Source: Singulisphaera sp. GP187 (GTDB lineage: Bacteria > Planctomycetota > Planctomycetia > Gemmatales > Gemmataceae). Taken from it: 41,436 nucleotides of DNA. Position 1 is the stretch's first letter. Each line of letters starts with the position of its first letter. Shown one piece after another: positions 1,050 to 29,349 of the stretch. The DNA is taken from positions 1 to 41,436 of the forward strand of contig CAMDQN010000055.1 of assembly GCA_945905925.1 (NCBI GenBank). Reading direction: 5' to 3'. Position numbers and translations under genes: made by a program. The notes under the pieces were generated by a model. The model was not told where the DNA came from. It searched no databases and saw only the letters and a program-made list of their open reading frames with translations.

Positions 1050-1179
1050 GACAGAAGAACCTCTCCCCCCAACCCCCTCCCCTAAGAAGGGAGGGGGAGC
1101 CAGAAAGGAAGCAACGGCTTTTTCCACTCATTCTCCTCCTCCCTTCGGGGAGGGGGTTTGGGGGTGGGTTGTCTTTCCG
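1050..1179. repeat. C/G-rich palindromic intergenic repeat (family A, copy 1)
   Basis: Two C-rich/G-rich arms face each other across about 40 bases. The left arm contains CCCCTCCCCTAAGAAGGGAG, and the right arm contains CTCCCTTCGGGGAGGGGG followed by a G-rich tail. Each arm is itself a small hairpin. The element begins GACAGAAGAACC and ends TCTTTCCG. Nearly the same ends and core recur at 20400-20496, so these are two copies of one dispersed family. It lies in the divergent gap between the dehydrogenase-like gene and the next plus-strand gene. Confidence 0.75.
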
Positions 1180-11700: not shown

Positions 11701-13521
11701 GTCAGAGATGATAGGGGAGGGGAGTTCCATCTGGCGACACGGCAGTGCTTCAGGCGAACCCGGAGCATCAGCGACGGGATCCCCCGCGTTTCCTGCGCCG
11801 CCCCCCCGTTGCTGACGCTCCGGGTTCGCCTGCGCGGGGCCACGCCCCAGGTAAGTTGTCAGCGACATCGCCCCGCCCTCACGATAAGGGTCGATGGGGG
11901 GGTTCGTCACCTCGGCGAACGTCTGCTGAAGGTACTTGAACAGTGTTGGGTGGTGTTGGCTGAACACCGTCAGCACGCGGTCGTGGCCCATGCTCGACAG
12001 CGGTTCCTTCTTGAGCTTCGCCATGTCGCGCACGAACACCGCGCGGTCGAAGTCCCAACCCGCCGCTTGAAGCAAGTGATCGAGCGACCACGTGCGATCC
12101 GTGAGCATCGCGCCCACGGTGTCGTCCGTTTGGCGTGTGTAGTCGAACCCTTCGGGAATGATGATCTGCCGGCGGTTGAGTTCGCGCACGTCGCCCAACT
12201 CGGCTTCCGCCTCCGTGATGACGCGGGCCATGATTTGGTAACTGTCGAGTCGCTCGCCGGTTTCGGTGTCGAGCGCGATCATCTGCCCGGGTTGAAGTTG
12301 CCCGCTCGCGACGATGGTGGTCGCGTCGAGGCCGAACACGCCGGATTCGCTACCGATGTAGAGCCAGCCCCTTCGGTCTGAACACCATCGCACAGGTCGC
12401 AACCCCATGCGGTCCACCAGGCCCACGAGCATTCGCCCGTCGGTGCCGATGATGCCCGCGGGGCCGTCCCACGCCGCGAGGCTTCCGAACGTGCGCCGGT
12501 AGTACGTGAACAGGTCGAAGGCTTCCTGACCCCACACGTCCGCTTCCGTGTCCCACACCGGCGGGATGCTGAGCCGTAGCGCGCGCAACATACTCCAGTT
12601 CTGTTCGCGCATTAGATACTCGACCCACTCGTCCAGGCTGGCCGAGTCGCTCATCTTCGGTGTGAGGAGGTCGCCGCCGGGCAGCGGTGGTTGCAACCCG
12701 CGCGCGAACGCCGACACCGCATTCCGCGTGGTGCGGACCGTGTTGATCTCGCCGTTGTGGCATGTGAGCCGAAACGGTTGAGCCAATGTCCAATTAGGGA
12801 ACGTGTTCGTGCTGTATCGGCGGTGGAACGTCGCGATGCCGGTCTCGAATGCGGGGTTCGCGAAGTCCTGGTAGAAGTCCGCGAGTTGGCCGCTGGTCAT
12901 CAGCCCCTTGTAGCCGACTAGCGTCGCGGAGAGCGAGACCATGTAGGCGTTCAGGCCGGCGGTGGTGAGGCGCTGACGGAATTCGAACCGGCGCAGCAGG
13001 AGCCAACGGTCGGCCGTGGCAACGTCGCCCTCCACCTTGAAGAGTGCGTGCTCGATGTACGCGGGGCGCGCGCTTCGCGCTTGCTGTGGAAGCACGTCGT
13101 CGACGACGGGCACGGGGCGGAAGCCGAGGAGTTTCACCGGGCCACCGGAGAGCACCTCGCGCACCAGCGCGCGAACTTGATCCGCGCGCGCCGGTTCAGC
13201 CTCAAAGATGAACAGCACGCCGACCGCGACTGCGTCTTCGGCCCGGAGGCCACGTGCGCCGTCGAATCGGAGTCGCTTCGCTTCTTCTTTGAAGAAGGCT
13301 TGAGGGGTCGCGAGGAGCAGGCCGGCGCCGTCGCCGGCGTCGCCGCACACGCCGCCTCGGTGTTCCATCGCTCGGAGCGCTCCGACCGCGCGCCGGAGCA
13401 ACTCGGCCGAGGGTTTCCCGTCGCGGGCGGCGACACCGCCGATACCACATGCATCGTGCCCGACTTCGTCGGTGTACAGGAGTTTACCGCCGCGGACCCG
13501 TGCCAGGCCGGTCTCGTTCAT
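8755..13521 (-). CDS. gltB: Glutamate synthase large chain
   Basis: This enzyme makes glutamate from glutamine and 2-oxoglutarate. The 1588-residue length is slightly above the family norm. ATG 13521 is preferred over an upstream GTG (13533) because GAAGG lies five bases before it. Domains in order: class II glutamine amidotransferase whose nucleophile is Cys25 in DACGIGGVA, implying removal of a 24-residue propeptide; a central domain; the FMN-binding synthase domain; the 3Fe-4S cysteines in the C-x5-C-x4-C pattern CIVCKSCHIPNC near residue 1207; and the glycine-rich C-terminal beta-helix. Residues about 563-590 are an insertion encoded by a palindromic repeat (separate entry). It replaces the usual short linker between LTTYLGRGP and QMELPSPI. 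The small subunit gene gltD is not in the window. Confidence 0.95.
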   Translation of the reverse strand: MNETGLARVRGGKLLYTDEVGHDACGIGGVAARDGKPSAELLRRAVGALRAMEHRGGVCGDAGDGAGLLLATPQAFFKEEAKRLRFDGARGLRAEDAVAVGVLFIFEAEPARADQVRALVREVLSGGPVKLLGFRPVPVVDDVLPQQARSARPAYIEHALFKVEGDVATADRWLLLRRFEFRQRLTTAGLNAYMVSLSATLVGYKGLMTSGQLADFYQDFANPAFETGIATFHRRYSTNTFPNWTLAQPFRLTCHNGEINTVRTTRNAVSAFARGLQPPLPGGDLLTPKMSDSASLDEWVEYLMREQNWSMLRALRLSIPPVWDTEADVWGQEAFDLFTYYRRTFGSLAAWDGPAGIIGTDGRMLVGLVDRMGLRPVRWCSDRRGWLYIGSESGVFGLDATTIVASGQLQPGQMIALDTETGERLDSYQIMARVITEAEAELGDVRELNRRQIIIPEGFDYTRQTDDTVGAMLTDRTWSLDHLLQAAGWDFDRAVFVRDMAKLKKEPLSSMGHDRVLTVFSQHHPTLFKYLQQTFAEVTNPPIDPYREGGAMSLTTYLGRGPAQANPERQQRGGGAGNAGDPVADAPGSPEALPCRQMELPSPIISDAIVEEIRQNEVLGFKLLDATFPIQGGADSLRTSLVALQSAAEKAVHDGYHVLCVSDKEACKRGIFPIPSLLALGAVHEYLCRHGLRDKCSLIVQAGDIQEGHDICCLVACGADAVHPYLMFRLVKDGLNFKDPDSKQESKLEPREALENLFAALEDTTKKVISKMGITTIEGYRGAQLFEAVGFGPDLMAFLGDFPSRLGGIGFNELVEDAQWRVQQAEKMTVLGRNRDYHAFNAKVRMALRDAVKEAHPEPEQGGEMAYTAPPSEDDPGAPQRVADKFVKFTDMVSARVPTVLRDLFSIRFAAGGVAQVEVQSATKMIAQHFRGAAMSHGALTGASHMTIAAAVNELGAGSNSGEGGEARWRNDLPERAYGSFWDKVRAQRLAHPEIYTLGGDLAKSRFRSRIRQIASGRFGVDAEYLVNADEISIKMAQGAKPGEGGQLMGKKVTAEIAEIRFAKPGTDLISPPPHHDIYSIEDLAQLIYDLKAVKPNVPVSVKLVAVENIGTIAVGVAKAGADIIEIDGIDGGTGAAMVSSKEHAGLPSEMGLAEAHQALVVNGLRTSVKLRVGGGIKNGHDIIKYALFGADEFSFGQGLMVSVGCIVCKSCHIPNCPTGITGSPEIFKGHPEHTKAYLHAVADETRVLLARMGFAHLSEITGRSDLLVRRTDLKEKHPRPAMLDLSRFIHPDMAMSRLAENHPQTPPGRGLCDITGSLNERILAATYDAIDTSQNADLVFRVRNSDRAVGATVAGQIAKLYGREGMPNHRKIKVRLEGEAGQSFGAWCIHGLDLELRGFAQDGVAKGISGGTVVVTLDYTISNYGGEIQSVTGNNVGYGATGGTIFIGGRAGHRLGIRNSGATIVAEAAGKYACEYMTRGRVLILGPVENEIGSGMTGGELFVFDPKTEAPAKLHGKSVTVIDCSHVDYEWMHPLLHQYFARTGSRQAEYLLKNWADVRRGRRLRKVLPLAVARAMEDLKTAGTNAG
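11751..11832. repeat. Palindromic repeat inserted in frame within gltB (family F)
   Basis: Left arm 11751-11778 (CAGGCGAACCCGGAGCATCA and onward) and right arm 11805-11832 are inverted copies matching at 26 of 28 positions, separated by 26 C/G-rich bases. The element keeps the gltB frame open and encodes a low-complexity stretch including NPERQQRGGG and VADAPGSPEAL. A related single arm is present at 23834-23858 inside the kinase gene, which shows the sequence is a mobile or dispersed unit and not part of the enzyme. Confidence 0.8.
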
Positions 13522-15358: not shown

Positions 15359-15823
15359 TTATTTGCTCAAGTCGATTTCCAAGTCTGCGATGTTCACTTC
15401 GCGCCCGCCCATAGGGTCGCCGTCGGCGATCCGCCCCCAGTCACCGGCCCCGTGGTCGGCTGCCCATCCGCCGTCGAGTTCCATTTCTCGCTGACAGGTT
15501 ACGCACATCGTGCTGAACGGCAACGCATTCAGCCGCGTGACCGGGATCTTGATCGAACATACCTCGCACTTGCCGTAGGTGCCGGCCTTGAGCCGACGCA
15601 GCGCGCGTTCGATTTGAGCCAATTCCTTGGATTCGAGTTCGGCGATGGCTGAAGAAATTTCTTCACCGCTCGCGTCGAACGCGGCGTCCGCCGGATCCCC
15701 GCACGCGGACGAGTGTTTTACGTGAGCGAGTTCTTCGAGTTCGAAACCGAGCCGCTTGCGGAGTTCGGTCCGGCGGGTGATCAAGTTCTTATGGAGTCGC
15801 AGGAGAGCATCTTGGCGAGCCAT
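15359..15823 (-). CDS. DksA/TraR-family zinc-finger transcription factor
   Basis: Members of this family bind the secondary channel of RNA polymerase; DksA itself potentiates ppGpp. ATG 15823 is preceded by GGGAGG with nine bases between, giving 154 residues. Residues 5-75 form the predicted coiled coil, with an acidic region GDPADAAFDASGEE (42-55) where the tip loop would be. The C4 zinc finger is complete: C86-x2-C89 and C107-x2-C110, in KCEVCSIKIPV and MCVTC. The tail (EVNIADLEIDLSK) is family-typical only in part. A strong terminator follows. Whether it is true DksA or a paralogue cannot be decided from the sequence alone. Confidence 0.88.
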   Translation of the reverse strand: MARQDALLRLHKNLITRRTELRKRLGFELEELAHVKHSSACGDPADAAFDASGEEISSAIAELESKELAQIERALRRLKAGTYGKCEVCSIKIPVTRLNALPFSTMCVTCQREMELDGGWAADHGAGDWGRIADGDPMGGREVNIADLEIDLSK

Positions 15824-16284: not shown

Positions 16285-16437
16285 AAGACAGAAGTAGGGA
16301 AGAAGTAGCCGCACGAGAAACGCAGATAAAGACACGATAAAGGCTAAGACCGAGTTCTGAAAACACTCAGTTCTTCTGCCTTTATCGTGTCTTTATCTGC
16401 GTTTCTCGTGCGGCTACTTCTTCCCTACTTCTGTCTT
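16285..16437. repeat. Perfect 60-bp inverted repeat with 33-base loop
   Basis: 16285-16344 and 16378-16437 are exact reverse complements over all 60 positions. Weaker complementarity continues outward with a two-base gap. The arms are about 47% GC, clearly lower than the neighbouring genes. The right arm ends four bases before the stop codon of the DHH gene, so transcripts running past that stop would fold into a long perfect double-stranded hairpin. No T-run follows, and no transposase is visible. Confidence 0.95.
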
Positions 16438-16441
16438 TTGC

Positions 16442-17542
16442 TTACGATTGCAGGTTTTGGAGCATGTCGCGGAGCGGGACGAGACGCTGCCCGCGAGTGT
16501 CTTCGATCTTGAACGCCTTGAGGAACCGGCGTCGGAGTTCACTTTGGAGGTCTTCGATGGCGCTCGGAGCGGTGCTCGAGAGCGGGATCGCACCACCGGC
16601 ACGCCGGGCGTGCCCCCCCGCACGGCCGAGTCTGCCGACCACCAGTCGCAGAATCTCGCCCGCGCGAGCGTTCTCGATCGAAGCGCGCACCGAGAGGATC
16701 AGGTTGTCCTCGAACACCCCACCGCAGATAGCGTAGTCGATCTGATCGAAGCGGATCATGAAGTCCACGACCTCGGCCGCCTGCTCTGGGAGCGGGAGCG
16801 GGTTCACCCAACTCATCAGCAACCGATCGTATACGAACGAACTTTGCATCGCCTGGAGTGTGCATTCAAAGTAACTGTGCGGCAGGCGGGCGTTGCGGAT
16901 CTGCGCGATCACGTCCTTGTCCGCGCCTGGGTACAGTTTGAGGAGCGCTGCGTCGTCTGCGGGGCTGGCTTCCCGGGGGTAACCCGTCACTTCCGTTTCG
17001 ATCCCGTAGAGCAAGGCGGTGGCGACCTTTTCTGGGATCGGCGCACCTTGCTCGAGCAGGTACTTCGTGACGAGGGTGCAGGTTGCGCCGTGCGTGACGC
17101 GGATGTCGGTGAACGCGACGCCTTCGAGGTCGCCGGGGGTGTCGTGGTGGTCGAGGACCGCGTAGAGCGGAACGGATTCCGGGAACGTGTGCCGCCCAGT
17201 GCGCGGCTGACTGTCCACCATCACGACCGCGTCGTTCGCGCCCCACGCCATCTCTTCGATGGGAACGAGATCGAGATGGAGTATCTCGACGAGCGCGCGG
17301 TTTTCGGCGCGGTTGATAAGGCCATCGCGGGTGATGATGGTGGGCTTGCCGAGGCGGGATTCGACGAGGTGGGCGAGGCCCAACATGCTGCCGAGGCTGT
17401 CTGGGTCAGGCTGCACGTGCGAGACGAATACGACGCGATCGAACGGGGCGAGTCCAAGCAGGAAGCGATCCGACCTGCGTAATCCGGAAGAGGATGATTT
17501 TGAGTTGGAGGCACTTTCGGGGTCGGCGCGATGGTGCGCCAT
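16442..17542 (-). CDS. DHH/DHHA1 phosphoesterase, NrnA-like (oligoribonuclease / pAp phosphatase type)
   Basis: The start ATG 17542 is set by GAGGA eight bases upstream; the longer frame reaching 17803 has no ribosome site and unlike composition. The 366-residue product has the metal ligands of the family: H42 and D46/D48 in VSHVQPDPDSLGS, D110 in VVMVDSQ, and D131-H132-H133 in LDHHDT. The DHHA1 domain carries the glycine-rich GRAGGHARRAGG near residue 320. NrnA-type enzymes degrade nanoRNA and dephosphorylate 3'-phosphoadenosine 5'-phosphate. SHVQPDPD differs from the common SHxxPDGD in having Pro where Gly is usual, so exact substrate preference is uncertain. It diverges from the PSD1 gene. 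Confidence 0.85.
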   Translation of the reverse strand: MAHHRADPESASNSKSSSSGLRRSDRFLLGLAPFDRVVFVSHVQPDPDSLGSMLGLAHLVESRLGKPTIITRDGLINRAENRALVEILHLDLVPIEEMAWGANDAVVMVDSQPRTGRHTFPESVPLYAVLDHHDTPGDLEGVAFTDIRVTHGATCTLVTKYLLEQGAPIPEKVATALLYGIETEVTGYPREASPADDAALLKLYPGADKDVIAQIRNARLPHSYFECTLQAMQSSFVYDRLLMSWVNPLPLPEQAAEVVDFMIRFDQIDYAICGGVFEDNLILSVRASIENARAGEILRLVVGRLGRAGGHARRAGGAIPLSSTAPSAIEDLQSELRRRFLKAFKIEDTRGQRLVPLRDMLQNLQS

Positions 17543-17906: not shown

Positions 17907-20390
17907 ATGCGCCTGACCTCGATTGCCCTCGTTGTTGGCCTCGTGTGGCTCGCTCCGCGTGCCGGTGCCGCCGACGACCCCGGTATCGCCTTCTTCGAGA
18001 CGAAGGTGCGCCCGGTGTTGGTGAAGGAGTGTTACTCGTGCCACTCCGCGACCGAGAAAAAAGCGAAAGGCGGCCTGGAACTCGACAGCGCGGCCGGGTT
18101 GCTCAAAGGCGGGGAGGGCGGTCCGGCCGTGGTCGCCGGCAAGCCGGACGCGAGTCCGCTTATCAAGGCGATTCGGCACGCCGACACGCAACTGAAGATG
18201 CCGCCGACAGGGAAACTTCCAGACGCGGTCGTCGCGGACCTGACGAAATGGGTTCAGTCCGGGGCCGCGATGCCGAAGGACACCGGTGTCGGGGTTCGTC
18301 CTACAACCAAGATCGACATCGAAGCGGGGCGTGCATTCTGGTCGTTCCGACCGCTCGCCGCTGCTGTACCGCCCGAAGTCAAAACGGTTGGATGGGCACG
18401 AACGCCCGTCGATCGGTTCATCCTGGCGAAGCTCGAAGCGAAGAAGCTCCGTCCGAACAACCCCGCGGACCGCGAGAAGCTCATCCGCCGCGCCTACTTC
18501 GACCTCACCGGACTGCCGCCGACGGTCGCGGAGATCGACGTGTTCGTTGCTGATAATTCGCCCGATGCGTGGGCAAAACTGGTCGAGAAACTCCTCGCGA
18601 GTGATCGCTACGGCGAGCGCTGGGCACGGCACTGGCTCGACGTCGCGCGGTTCGCGGAGAGTGGCGGGTATGAGTTCGACGGCGACCGCAAGGGCGCTCA
18701 CCACTACCGCGACTTCGTCATCCGCGCGCTCAACTCCGACATGCCTTACAACGAGTTCGTGCGGCTCCAGTTGGCGGGCGACAAGCTCTTGCCGAACGAC
18801 TACAACGCGGTCGCCGCGACCGGGTTTCTGGTGGCCGGGCCGTACCCCGGACAGACGACCGCGAAGACGCTGGAACCGATCCGCTACGACCAACTCGACG
18901 ACATGATATCCACCACCGGCTCCGCGTTCTTAGGCGTGACGATCGGCTGTGCGCGCTGCCACGATCACAAGTACGATCCGATTCCGCAGGACGACTATTA
19001 CCGGTTGCTCGCCACTCTCGCGACGACCAACTCGACCACCGCGAACCTCGACCCGAAGCCCGAACTCTACCAGCAGCAAAAGCTGAAGTGGGATGTGATC
19101 CGCGCGACACTGGACGTTGAATGGCAGTCGTTCGTTCGCGACCGGTTCCCGAAAGCGTTCGCGACGTGGTGGGCGGAGAATGGCGAGCAGGTGATTTCAC
19201 GAAGAGTGTTCGCGGACCCGAGAGCGATCGTGGCCCGGCAATTGGCCGCGCTGCTGGCGAAGAGCGACGGCAAGGTTACCGACGCGAACCGCGCGGAACT
19301 CGCGGAGTTGGCCCGCGGGATGGAACCGGAGTCGCGTAAGGCTTTTGCGCCGACTCTTGCGCATCTCGCAGCCGCGCCGAAGCCGAAACTCGATGCGGTG
19401 TTCGCGGTCGGGCAGCGCGGCGGTGAGGTGTTCTACCTGATTCGCGGCGAGACCGGGCGCAAGAACGGTATACCCGCGCCCGGGTTCATGAAGGTGTTGA
19501 TGTCGAACCCGGACAAGGACGCGCGGTGGACCGCGCCGCTCGCGGACAAGAAGTCCACGGTCGATCCGCGTGTTGCTCTGGCGAACTGGATGACTGACGC
19601 CGACGCCGGGGCCGGGCGATTGCTGGCTCGCGTGATCGTGAACCGGCTCTGGCAGCATCACATGGGCCGCGGACTGGTCGCCACGCCCAACGACTTCGGC
19701 GTGCAGGGCGACCGCCCGACACACCCCGAGTTGCTCGACTACCTGGCGAGCGAGCTGATTCGCGGCGGCTGGCGTTTGAAGCCGATTCACAAGTTGATCA
19801 TGACGAGCGCGGTGTACCAACAATCGGGCGACGACATCGCCGCGAGTCGTGCCGCCGACCCCGACAACAAGTTGTGGTGGCGCCGCCCGCCGATGCGCCT
19901 CGAAGCGGAATCGGTGCGGGATTCGCTGCTCGCCGCCGGCGGCGCGCTCGACTTGACGATGTTCGGTGCGGGCACGCTGGACGAGGCGAGTTCGCGGCGC
20001 AGCGTGTACCTGACCGTGAAGCGGAGCCGGCCCGTGCCGATCCTGCAACTGTTCGACTCCCCGGAAGCGATTCAGAGCATCGGCGAACGGCAGGTCACGA
20101 CGGTTCCCACACAAGCGCTTACGCTGATGAACTCGCCGTTCGTGCGCAAACAGGCCGACTTGCTCGCCAAACGCGTGCGGCCCGTGGGAGGAGAATTGCC
20201 CGCGGCGATCGCGACCGCGTACCGCACCGCGTTCGGGCGCAAACCGACCTCGCAGGAAAAGGACCGGGCCGCGGCGTTCGTCGGCCGGCACGCCGAAACC
20301 TACGGCAAAGGTGAACCGGCGACGGCACGTGCATTTGCCGACTTCTGCCAGGCGCTGCTGTGCTCGAACGAGTTCGTGTACGTGGATTAG
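17907..20390 (+). CDS. PSD1-family exported cytochrome-like protein (DUF1549/DUF1553)
   Basis: From ATG 17907 (GAGGT nine bases upstream) the product has 827 residues. A signal peptide covers 1-21 (MRLTSIALVVGLVWLAPRAG). The planctomycete cytochrome C domain follows with a haem-binding motif C42-YS-C45-H46. Next comes DUF1549, with PVDRFILAKLEAKKLRP, RAYFDLTGLPPTVAEI and GERWARHWLDVARFAES, and with a second CxxCH at C348-AR-C351-H352 (GCARCHDHKYDPI). DUF1553 closes the protein (NRLWQHHMGRGLVATPNDFG, RPTHPELLDYLA, PTQALTLMNSPFV). Such proteins are very numerous in planctomycetes; a redox role outside the cytoplasm, possibly in polysaccharide breakdown, is inferred. It is followed by a DUF1501 gene, its standard partner. 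Confidence 0.92.
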   Translation: MRLTSIALVVGLVWLAPRAGAADDPGIAFFETKVRPVLVKECYSCHSATEKKAKGGLELDSAAGLLKGGEGGPAVVAGKPDASPLIKAIRHADTQLKMPPTGKLPDAVVADLTKWVQSGAAMPKDTGVGVRPTTKIDIEAGRAFWSFRPLAAAVPPEVKTVGWARTPVDRFILAKLEAKKLRPNNPADREKLIRRAYFDLTGLPPTVAEIDVFVADNSPDAWAKLVEKLLASDRYGERWARHWLDVARFAESGGYEFDGDRKGAHHYRDFVIRALNSDMPYNEFVRLQLAGDKLLPNDYNAVAATGFLVAGPYPGQTTAKTLEPIRYDQLDDMISTTGSAFLGVTIGCARCHDHKYDPIPQDDYYRLLATLATTNSTTANLDPKPELYQQQKLKWDVIRATLDVEWQSFVRDRFPKAFATWWAENGEQVISRRVFADPRAIVARQLAALLAKSDGKVTDANRAELAELARGMEPESRKAFAPTLAHLAAAPKPKLDAVFAVGQRGGEVFYLIRGETGRKNGIPAPGFMKVLMSNPDKDARWTAPLADKKSTVDPRVALANWMTDADAGAGRLLARVIVNRLWQHHMGRGLVATPNDFGVQGDRPTHPELLDYLASELIRGGWRLKPIHKLIMTSAVYQQSGDDIAASRAADPDNKLWWRRPPMRLEAESVRDSLLAAGGALDLTMFGAGTLDEASSRRSVYLTVKRSRPVPILQLFDSPEAIQSIGERQVTTVPTQALTLMNSPFVRKQADLLAKRVRPVGGELPAAIATAYRTAFGRKPTSQEKDRAAAFVGRHAETYGKGEPATARAFADFCQALLCSNEFVYVD

Positions 20391-20402: not shown

Positions 20403-20490
20403 GAACCCCTCCCCAACCCCTCCCCTAAGAAGGGAGGGGCTAAATGCTGAAGCCCCTCCCTTCTTAGGGGAGGGGTTGGGGGAGGGGTTC
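20403..20490. repeat. Near-perfect 39/40-bp palindromic repeat (family A, copy 2)
   Basis: Left arm 20403-20441 and right arm 20451-20490 are inverted copies that differ only by one extra C, around a nine-base loop. Each arm itself holds CCCCTCCCCTAAGAAGGGAG or its complement. It begins 12 bases after the PSD1 stop and lies within the PSD1/DUF1501 pair. Its ends resemble those of the copy at 1050-1179. Confidence 0.85.
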
Positions 20491-22016: not shown

Positions 22017-22359
22017 CCCGTATCCTGAACAGATCGCGTCGACTCGAGTTTCGGACTGATCGAGGAGTTCCGCAGTTCTGAGGTCCAGGGGTTTCAACCC
22101 CTGAAACTGTGACTGGCGGCGCCAGTGAGGCGTTTGTCTCCCTCGCCCCGGCTTTGCGGGGCGAGGGTTAGGGTGAGGGGTCTTTTGCATGACCACCAAA
22201 CCAAGCACCCCTCACCCTGCCCTCTCCCCGCAAAGCCGGGGCGAGGGAAAGAACTCAAACTTGGCCGCGCGAAAGCTAACGGGTATCGAAAATGGCGGTT
22301 GAGGACTGGCGAATACGCCTTAACATCGGCCCCGCCCCTGTCGTACCCGGAGACGCCCC
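22017..22359. other. Repeat-filled intergenic stretch
   Basis: No gene is seen. The stretch holds a small hairpin CAGGGGTTTCAACCCCTG (22086-22103) and a larger palindromic repeat (22140-22247). Between the second repeat and the kinase start nothing else is recognised apart from a ribosome site (GGAG eight bases before the ATG). Confidence 0.6.
22140..22247. repeat. Palindromic repeat around CGCAAAGCCGGGGCGAGGG (family B)
   Basis: Left arm 22140-22181 and right arm 22207-22247 are imperfect inverted copies, differing only in a short central part, around a 25-base loop. Each arm contains its own hairpin (CGCCCCG...CGGGGCG type). The layout is the same as family A: nested hairpins, and a pyrimidine-rich TCTTTT after the first arm. 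Confidence 0.8.
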
Positions 22360-28416: not shown

Positions 28417-29283
28417 GTGAACGGCCTTCTGGTACTCGACAAACCCGGTGGGATGACCTCGCGCGACGCAGTGAACCGTTTACAGAAGTGGTTTCCGCGC
28501 CAGACCAAGATTGGGCACACGGGGACACTCGACCCGCTCGCGACGGGTGTGCTGGTGGTGTGCATCGGCTTCGCGACACGTCTCGCGGACTACGTGCAAG
28601 CAATGGGCAAGAGCTATGAGTCGCGCTTCCGGCTTGGCGTGAGCAGCACTAGCGACGACGCCGACGGTGAAGTCACCGAGACACTGAGCGCGGTCGCGCC
28701 GACGCGCGCGCAGATCGACCTGGCGCTCACGGCATTCAGCGGGAACGTGGAGCAACTGCCGCCCAGCGTGTCCGCACTTAAGGTCGGTGGCCGGCGGGCA
28801 CACGACCTCGCGCGCAAGGGCAAAGAGGTGCCGCTCGCGCCGCGCACGGTGCGCATCGACGCGGTTCGCGTTCTGGCTTACGAGTGGCCGTGGCTCGATG
28901 TCGAAGTCGATTGCGGAAAGGGGACGTACATCCGCTCCATCGCGCGCGACCTAGGCGCGCGCCTGGGGTGTGGCGGTTTGGTGCAGACGCTTCGGCGCAC
29001 CCGGGTCGGGCCGTTCCTGGCGGAGCAGGGGGTTAGCGTCGACGCCGATCCCGCCGGCGTGAAGTTGCTGCCTATGACGATCGCGGTCGCTGGGATGGAG
29101 CAAATCCGCCTGAGTGCCGACGAGATTCGACGACTCCGACAGGGCCAGCGCATCAAGGCGAATGGGGAACGCACAACCCCTGATGGACTCGAGATCGCGC
29201 TACTCGACGAGAGTGGCGAGTTGGTCGGTATCTGTGTCATCGAAGGCGATCTGATCGTTACACAGATCATGTTTGCTGCGTGA
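28417..29283 (+). CDS. truB: tRNA pseudouridine-55 synthase TruB
   Basis: TruB converts U55 of the T loop in tRNAs to pseudouridine. GTG 28417 is preferred, with AAGGGGA just upstream; it gives 288 residues beginning with the conserved GLLVLDKPGGMTS. The catalytic aspartate is Asp39 in GHTGTLDPLATGVL. Further motifs are KSYESRFRLG, QLPPSVSALKVGGRRAHDLARKG and DCGKGTYIRSIARDLG. The C-terminal part (RLRQGQRIKANGERTT and onward) is a PUA-like domain. The gene is not next to rbfA or infB as in many bacteria. It converges on valS, with a palindromic repeat between. Confidence 0.95.
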   Translation: MNGLLVLDKPGGMTSRDAVNRLQKWFPRQTKIGHTGTLDPLATGVLVVCIGFATRLADYVQAMGKSYESRFRLGVSSTSDDADGEVTETLSAVAPTRAQIDLALTAFSGNVEQLPPSVSALKVGGRRAHDLARKGKEVPLAPRTVRIDAVRVLAYEWPWLDVEVDCGKGTYIRSIARDLGARLGCGGLVQTLRRTRVGPFLAEQGVSVDADPAGVKLLPMTIAVAGMEQIRLSADEIRRLRQGQRIKANGERTTPDGLEIALLDESGELVGICVIEGDLIVTQIMFAA

Positions 29284-29296
29284 GTCATTCACTCAT

Positions 29297-29349
29297 AGCC
29301 CGCAGCGCAAGCAAGGGAGCAGCGATTGCCCTTGCTTGCGCTGCGGGCT
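29297..29349. repeat. Perfect 21-bp inverted repeat between truB and valS (family C)
   Basis: 29297-29317 (AGCCCGCAGCGCAAGCAAGG and one more G) and 29329-29349 are exact reverse complements around 11 bases. It sits between converging genes and may work as a bidirectional terminator, although there is no T-run. Its composition suggests a dispersed planctomycete repeat. Confidence 0.85.

Follow-up and report, generated by a model that had tools for sequence, protein, structure and literature searches.

A perfect inverted repeat of 60 bp beside an nrnA-like gene raises the question of what kind of element forms so large a hairpin, and how its two arms remain identical. The hairpin spans positions 16285-16437 of the 41,436-nucleotide stretch of Singulisphaera sp. 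GP187 DNA that was analysed (contig CAMDQN010000055.1; hereafter the window). The initial annotation offered three options: a MITE-like element, a structured RNA processed by RNase III, or a palindrome born during replication. Its interpretation is partly supported overall, and the MITE-like option is the best of the three. The hairpin is probably a non-autonomous, MITE-like element with no gene of its own, belonging to a family with hairpin ends in which the loop of the coding members holds a GxxExxY gene (PD-(D/E)XK nuclease family). The coordinates of this hairpin and of related features are collected in Table 1.

Table 1. Features of the hairpin locus and other long inverted repeats in the window.
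Feature	Position	Strand	Remarks
Left arm	16285..16344		Type A module GCCGCACGA..AACGCAGA..AAAGACACGAT
Loop, 33 nt	16345..16377		Position occupied by the GxxExxY gene in coding relatives
Right arm	16378..16437		Exact reverse complement of the left arm
nrnA-like DHH gene	16442..17416	-	Stop codon 16444-16442 abuts the hairpin; start uncertain, mechanical ORF to 17803
DksA/TraR zinc-finger type gene, next downstream	15359..15823	-	461 nt from the hairpin
Long gene-end hairpin, other sequence family	20411..20481		20 nt after the stop of a + strand gene ending at 20390
Perfect hairpin with 21-nt arms	29297..29349		Lies between two converging genes whose stops are at positions 29283 and 29360
Long inverted repeat, intergenic	22139..22248		122 nt after a stop

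All 60 positions of one arm are complementary to the other (60/60), and the arms have a GC content of 46.7% (A28 C10 G18 T4), compared with about 58-68% in 1-kb windows. Both values agree with those first noted. No longer inverted repeat was found in the window, where the runner-up has 36 nt at 94% identity. The predicted fold is exceptionally stable on either strand (z-scores of -20.6 for the plus and -22.9 for the minus strand; none of 200 shuffles reached this stability), and Markov-1 resampling of 400 kb produced no inverted repeats with arms of at least 24 nt. A feature missed by the initial annotation, along with the many similar hairpins and the relatives that bear a nuclease gene, is that the hairpin begins 4 nt past the TAA of the nrnA-like gene on the minus strand. 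The name given to that neighbor is consistent with a DHH/DHHA1-type protein, for which the DHHA1 match falls below its cut-off. Planctomycete cytochrome domains are also encoded near the hairpin. The reported lack of a terminator tail holds for the strand that carries the nrnA-like gene, where no T-run comes after the hairpin (CTCTGCTTGTG); on the opposite strand the edge reads TTTT.

The duplex is very stable and the genome encodes RNase III, and the hairpin might be a structured RNA that is cut by this enzyme to regulate nrnA or a neighboring gene. However, tRNAs are the sole Rfam matches above gathering score in the window and 18 related loci, and the stem mismatches of hairpins in this genome carry no excess of G-U. 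We consider such an RNA very unlikely.

A genome-wide search for the arm revealed that the hairpin belongs to a dispersed family. Within the genome of origin (G000; 6.47 Mb in 251 contigs), the DNA search gave 28 matches at 14 places, and a covariance model built from 11 copies located 54 places, a lower bound with 150 of 2049 candidates scored. When 59 genomes were searched at the DNA level, matches were present in 11 of the 19 genomes of the genus, G000 included, and in none of the 40 genomes outside it. An inverted repeat of at least 70 nt was present at 51 of the 54 covariance-model places, which were kept, and the three shorter ones were dropped. Word rules divide the arms of these 51 long copies into type B (CACAGAG; 19 copies), type A (GCCGCACGA; 16 copies), type C (CGCAGAG; 9 copies), type E (CGCAAAG; 3 copies), type D (CACAAAR; 2 copies) and type F (1 copy), with one copy unclassed. 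Five type B copies (L093, L096, L099, L100 and L104) appear by eye to have an asymmetric loop in common (GAGTTCAAAACACTGC and similar), which is found in either orientation relative to the abutting gene. Among viral sequences, a type A arm is present in one contig and a type B arm in 12 stretches.

The draft genome consists of many contigs (251), and some copies lie at contig ends, as might be expected of an assembly artefact, a concern that had been raised for this inverted repeat. However, an artefact is extremely unlikely because a hairpin of the same type occurs at the orthologous gene end in G016, on a contig of 9.8 Mb. Long hairpins are likewise present in G007, on a contig of 10.1 Mb.

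Dispersed gene-less copies, together with coding relatives that have the same kinds of ends (see below), favor the MITE-like option, but no target-site duplication was found. For 50 of the 51 copies, one at a contig start being omitted, shared flank words occur at chance level. The repeat abutting the arms averages 0.52 nt versus 0.35, a value attained by 29 of 1000 shuffles. The target-site duplication sought beside the arms is thus not present above chance in this set, and a clean empty site between nrnA and dksA is not definable. Inspection of type A copies showed no conserved GTAG or CGTC tag at their ends of the kind carried by REP/REPIN repeats. RAYT transposases probably drive the spread of REP hairpins, and the corresponding Y1 transposase domain (PF01797) has three matches in G000, two of them over the cut-off, and is present in 16 of 19 genomes. 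In the three genomes that lack PF01797, type A matches are weak and number 0-1, yet the domain is present in 7 of the 10 genomes that have 0-1 matches.

Most copies of the family are placed close to stop codons. With genes called from codon usage, by a caller that had been trained on the window, a stop lies within 20 nt of an edge in 41 of the 51 long copies (overlaps of up to 12 nt counted). The flanking genes are co-directional for 34 copies, convergent for 13 and divergent for 2, with the remaining 2 at contig edges. An unbiased scan of 400 kb of G000 (ungapped arms of at least 24 nt, 85% identity) recovered 52 long inverted repeats, many of which appear by eye to be unrelated in sequence. 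Repeats within genes (4 of 52 in G000 and 2 of 14 in G016) were excluded from the placement tests. Among the 48 intergenic repeats, 36 are located within 20 nt of a stop, compared with 11.6% of intergenic points (p ~3e-24). Long inverted repeats are carried by 45 of the 276 gene ends called in these 400 kb, which extrapolates to a genome-wide total of several hundred. The density per 200 kb is 12 in G007, where 8 of 12 intergenic repeats have a stop no more than 20 nt away, 14 in G016, where 4 of 12 are so placed, and zero in E. coli K-12.

Several of the gene-end hairpins are other, non-modular sequences, and therefore placement after a stop is not special to the family of types A-F. An arm much like that of the hairpin at 29297-29349 follows the ketoacyl-synthase gene in G003. 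Further abundant gene-end palindromes of G000 (L237-L256) are devoid of the module pattern, including CCCCCAACCCCCTCCCCTAAGAAGGGAGGGGG, GTAGGTGCCGCTTGCCGAGCGGCACG, GTAGGGTGGGACAAGGCTTTGCGCAGGCCCACCA and AAGTCGCAAGTCGCAAGTC. A CCCCCAACCCCC-type inverted repeat at window positions 1065-1164 lies between diverging genes and is an exception to the post-stop rule.

Another inverted repeat of the window (11751-11832; 28-nt arms, 93% identity) is found in frame within a glutamate-synthase-like gene. It encodes an extra stretch of protein, and the length of this segment varies across 11 relatives. Rickettsia palindromic elements are palindromic inserts in proteins, and by analogy this repeat may be an insert of the same kind.

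The same gene ends carry long inverted repeats in other species. The stops of orthologs were placed by tblastn, and a single threshold was applied (ungapped arms of at least 20 nt); a truncated ortholog (L341) and the nrnA end of G002, at a contig edge, were omitted. Repeats follow 8 of 18 ketoacyl-synthase genes, 5 of 17 nrnA-like genes, 4 of 11 orthologs of a gene with no Pfam match and 1 of 15 methyltransferase-like genes, with G000 included in each count. The repeats at these orthologous ends comprise several unrelated sequences. Five neighboring gene ends gave 0/11, 0/12, 0/14, 0/5 and 0/4, the last being that of a doubtful small ORF. With G000 removed, the pooled counts are 14/57 versus 0/41 (p = 2.7e-4), for a comparison in which the four ends were selected for having a hairpin in G000 and related species were treated as independent. 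In G005 the ketoacyl-synthase gene ends in a type A hairpin that is under the threshold and was left out of the count, and inspection revealed shorter GC-rich hairpins at these ends in some of the remaining orthologs.

This reuse of gene ends across species, and the presence of hairpins of many unrelated sequences that are all placed after stops, are what would be expected of an ordinary gene-end structure. Such a structure could be a long terminator that dispenses with a U-tract or a protective 3' hairpin under selection, in which case mobility would be irrelevant and the framing of GxxExxY genes by similar arms coincidental. However, the U-tract is absent (T amounts to 24% after 33 hairpins), Rho is encoded, and the methyltransferase-like end has a repeat in just 1 of 15 orthologs. 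Because SbcD and RNase III are encoded along with Rho, transcript 3' ends may also arise by other routes.

GxxExxY genes are located between arms of the same kinds. In G004, type A arms (42 nt, 86% identity) enclose a gene (L024) whose protein matches TIGR04256 (GxxExxY) with 127 bits, against a cut-off of 35, and PF13366 (PDDEXK_3) with 134 bits. A hairpin lacking a gene is also present in G004, and its arms are identical at 33 of 37 positions to those of its GxxExxY element. Genes matching GxxExxY/PF13366 are present in 14 of the 19 genus genomes; the search of these genomes gave no GxxExxY match in G000, and G005 has type A matches without any GxxExxY match.

The genus has 36 GxxExxY genes (37 rows); the analysis covered 31 of them, of which 30 have both flanks. 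Flanking inverted repeats with a score of at least 19 surround 26 of these 30 genes, compared with a best score of 14.5 in 600 shuffles, and four genes have no flanking repeats. When upstream and downstream flanks of different loci are cross-paired, 5% of the pairings reach a score of 19, presumably since several loci have the same arm types. By eye, the arms match the kinds of modules seen in gene-less hairpins, including CGCAGAG, CACAAAG, CGCAAAG, CACGGAT, CGCAGAT, GCCGCACGA and others; type A arms are found in only one of the 26 coding elements. These elements are 445-823 nt long, a stop lies within 20 nt of an edge in 23 of the 26, and the upstream gene is co-oriented with the GxxExxY gene in all 26. 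The upstream arm of one GxxExxY element (L391) resembles a complete hairpin itself by eye, as if elements were nested.

Arm type follows the protein. Arm similarity tracks protein identity (Mantel r 0.61; 0 of 5000 permutations), and the correlation drops to 0.30 below 70% protein identity. The residues D74, E84 and K86 of the nuclease motif (L024 protein numbering) are conserved in 29, 29 and 28 of 29 proteins. A plain terminator predicts neither paired arms upstream and downstream of GxxExxY genes nor an arm type that follows the protein, and we consider it rather unlikely that these hairpins are ordinary gene-end structures.

Related arms and framed genes extend beyond the genus. The type B arm word occurs in at least 118 public genome stretches, and the phyla among the matches listed are Verrucomicrobia, Acidobacteria, Planctomycetes, Cyanobacteria, Chloroflexi, Bacteroidetes, Proteobacteria and Spirochaetes, with archaea also represented; binning errors are possible in those records that are metagenomic. 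In 80 of these stretches, 42 of 90 type B arm places have an inverted partner within 400 nt and 48 have none. A GxxExxY-like stretch lies just inside 3 of these 90 arms, at two loci, one in an archaeal and one in a cyanobacterial record. The arm word at these loci (L119-L198) is AACCACAGAGNCACAGAG..ACACAGAG, present in many phyla and some archaea among the matches listed.

Seven of eight plasmid records with GxxExxY loci were analysed. Flanking repeats exceed all shuffles at three of the seven loci (Gemmatirosa, Bacteroides and Bernardetia), and no flanking repeats above shuffles were found at the other four. The arm sequence is CCACAGAGGACGCAGAGGACACGGAG in Bacteroides and of the CACAGAG kind in Bernardetia, so that two of the three plasmid arm sets, both in Bacteroidota, are of the CACAGAG/CGCAGAG kind. 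At all five plasmid loci annotated on both sides, the upstream gene and the GxxExxY gene share a strand. On a Sphingomonas plasmid (L407), a fatty-acid operon has the GxxExxY gene inserted between its fabD and fabG genes. It begins 33 nt past the stop of fabD, and only its upstream side has a module resembling an arm (CACGCGAAGGCGCGAGGACGCGAAG). A pattern search of viral contigs gave no GxxExxY relative.

The arms of a copy change in concert. For 11 of the 16 type A copies, which were aligned for this comparison, the left and right arms are 0.934 identical within a copy and 0.852 across copies (0 of 20000 permutations). Two-sided changes are present in 15 of 40 pairs versus 9.1 in shuffles, a count reached in 0 of 500. 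The ketoacyl-synthase hairpins of G000 and G016 have a loop sequence in common and are therefore taken as one ancestral copy. Between them, an A-T to T-A swap, a C-G to T-A change and two one-base indels appear alike in both arms. Two substitutions affect one arm only, as do some additional changes close to the loop. A second pair (G001 and G012) has one clear matched change, its other changes being one-sided. The suggestion that perfect identity reflects active correction is therefore supported. The idea of a replication-born palindrome also fits as an account of how the arms remain equal.

Two-sided changes alone do not distinguish copying at the DNA level from selection on RNA pairing as the sole force that keeps the arms identical. 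DNA-level copying predicts equal numbers of G-U and A-C mismatches and can yield matched indels. Among 1811 stem pairs in 33 oriented copies, the mismatches are 53 G-U, 46 A-C and 83 of other kinds, which argues against selection on pairing alone, as do the matched one-base indels and the A-T to T-A swap of the one orthologous pair. The G-U and A-C counts in the unbiased sets are 8 and 12 in G000, 6 and 0 in G007, and 6 and 4 in G016, so that G007 leans toward RNA pairing with few counts. We regard selection on pairing alone as unlikely. The matched changes and indels in both arms are consistent with DNA template switching, which might be the mechanism that copies one arm onto the other.

We propose that the hairpin at 16285-16437 is a gene-less relative of elements whose coding members are located right after a host stop codon, in sense. 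By analogy with RAYT transposases and REP hairpins, the GxxExxY nuclease probably recognizes the modular arms and drives, or once drove, their spread into other post-stop sites, and gene-less hairpins would be carried along with the coding elements. Once settled, a hairpin would give the host transcript a 3' end folded into a highly stable structure. When transcribed, it may protect or cap the host mRNA or end transcription in a manner that requires no U-tract. Template switching during replication, by rewriting one arm from the other, would keep the two identical. There is no detectable GxxExxY gene in G000, and so its copies would be stranded or would have moved from elsewhere. The absence of a target-site duplication, the lack of GxxExxY from this genome and the existence of GxxExxY genes without arms count against the hairpin being such an element.

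A broader possibility, which we advance tentatively and hold to be somewhat less than even, is that GxxExxY proteins are the nucleases of an unrecognized class of mobile elements that crosses phyla. Such an element would be a giant hairpin with modular arms that carries its gene in the loop, and it would insert in sense just past a host stop, and would therefore ride on the host transcript. Numerous hairpins without a gene, of the CACAGAG, CGCAGAG, GCCGCACGA and further types, would be left behind, would act as structures at gene ends and would perfect themselves by arm-to-arm copying. This would give a role to the GxxExxY proteins, a family so far named only after a motif, and would provide one testable model for hairpin repeats seen in many phyla. 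In the literature passages returned, those that name GxxExxY are unrelated to repeats, the arm sequence words led to no description of the repeat, and concept searches gave nothing on point.

These hairpins resemble several known systems. Intrinsic terminators also place a hairpin right after a stop codon, whereas the arms here are about 25-60 bp long, have no U-tract and are repetitive. Like MITEs, these hairpins have short copies that lack a gene, terminal inverted repeats and related coding elements whose ends are of matching kinds, but they prefer sites after stop codons, have no transposase, and no target-site duplication was found. Bacterial stem-loop repeat families such as ERIC and NEMIS (survey PMC2267715) are likewise dispersed intergenic hairpins, in contrast to which the placement here is tightly post-stop and arms stay equal within a copy while copies diverge. 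A term search of that source found no planctomycete.

Template switching is described in passages of another study (PMC8794818) as making and mending stems, with its role in maintenance called less clear. The hairpins considered there are alike in that copying of one arm onto the other produces double changes, whereas those described here are long, dispersed and bacterial, and carry matched indels. They offer natural cases for the question that those passages leave open, namely whether template switching keeps stems perfect.

REP/REPIN sequences and their RAYT partners are also similar, in that palindromes scattered between genes are presumed to be moved by a small enzyme. However, RAYT is a Y1 transposase, whereas the candidate mover here is a PD-(D/E)XK (GxxExxY) enzyme, the arms are long and modular, and in coding members the gene lies inside the hairpin.
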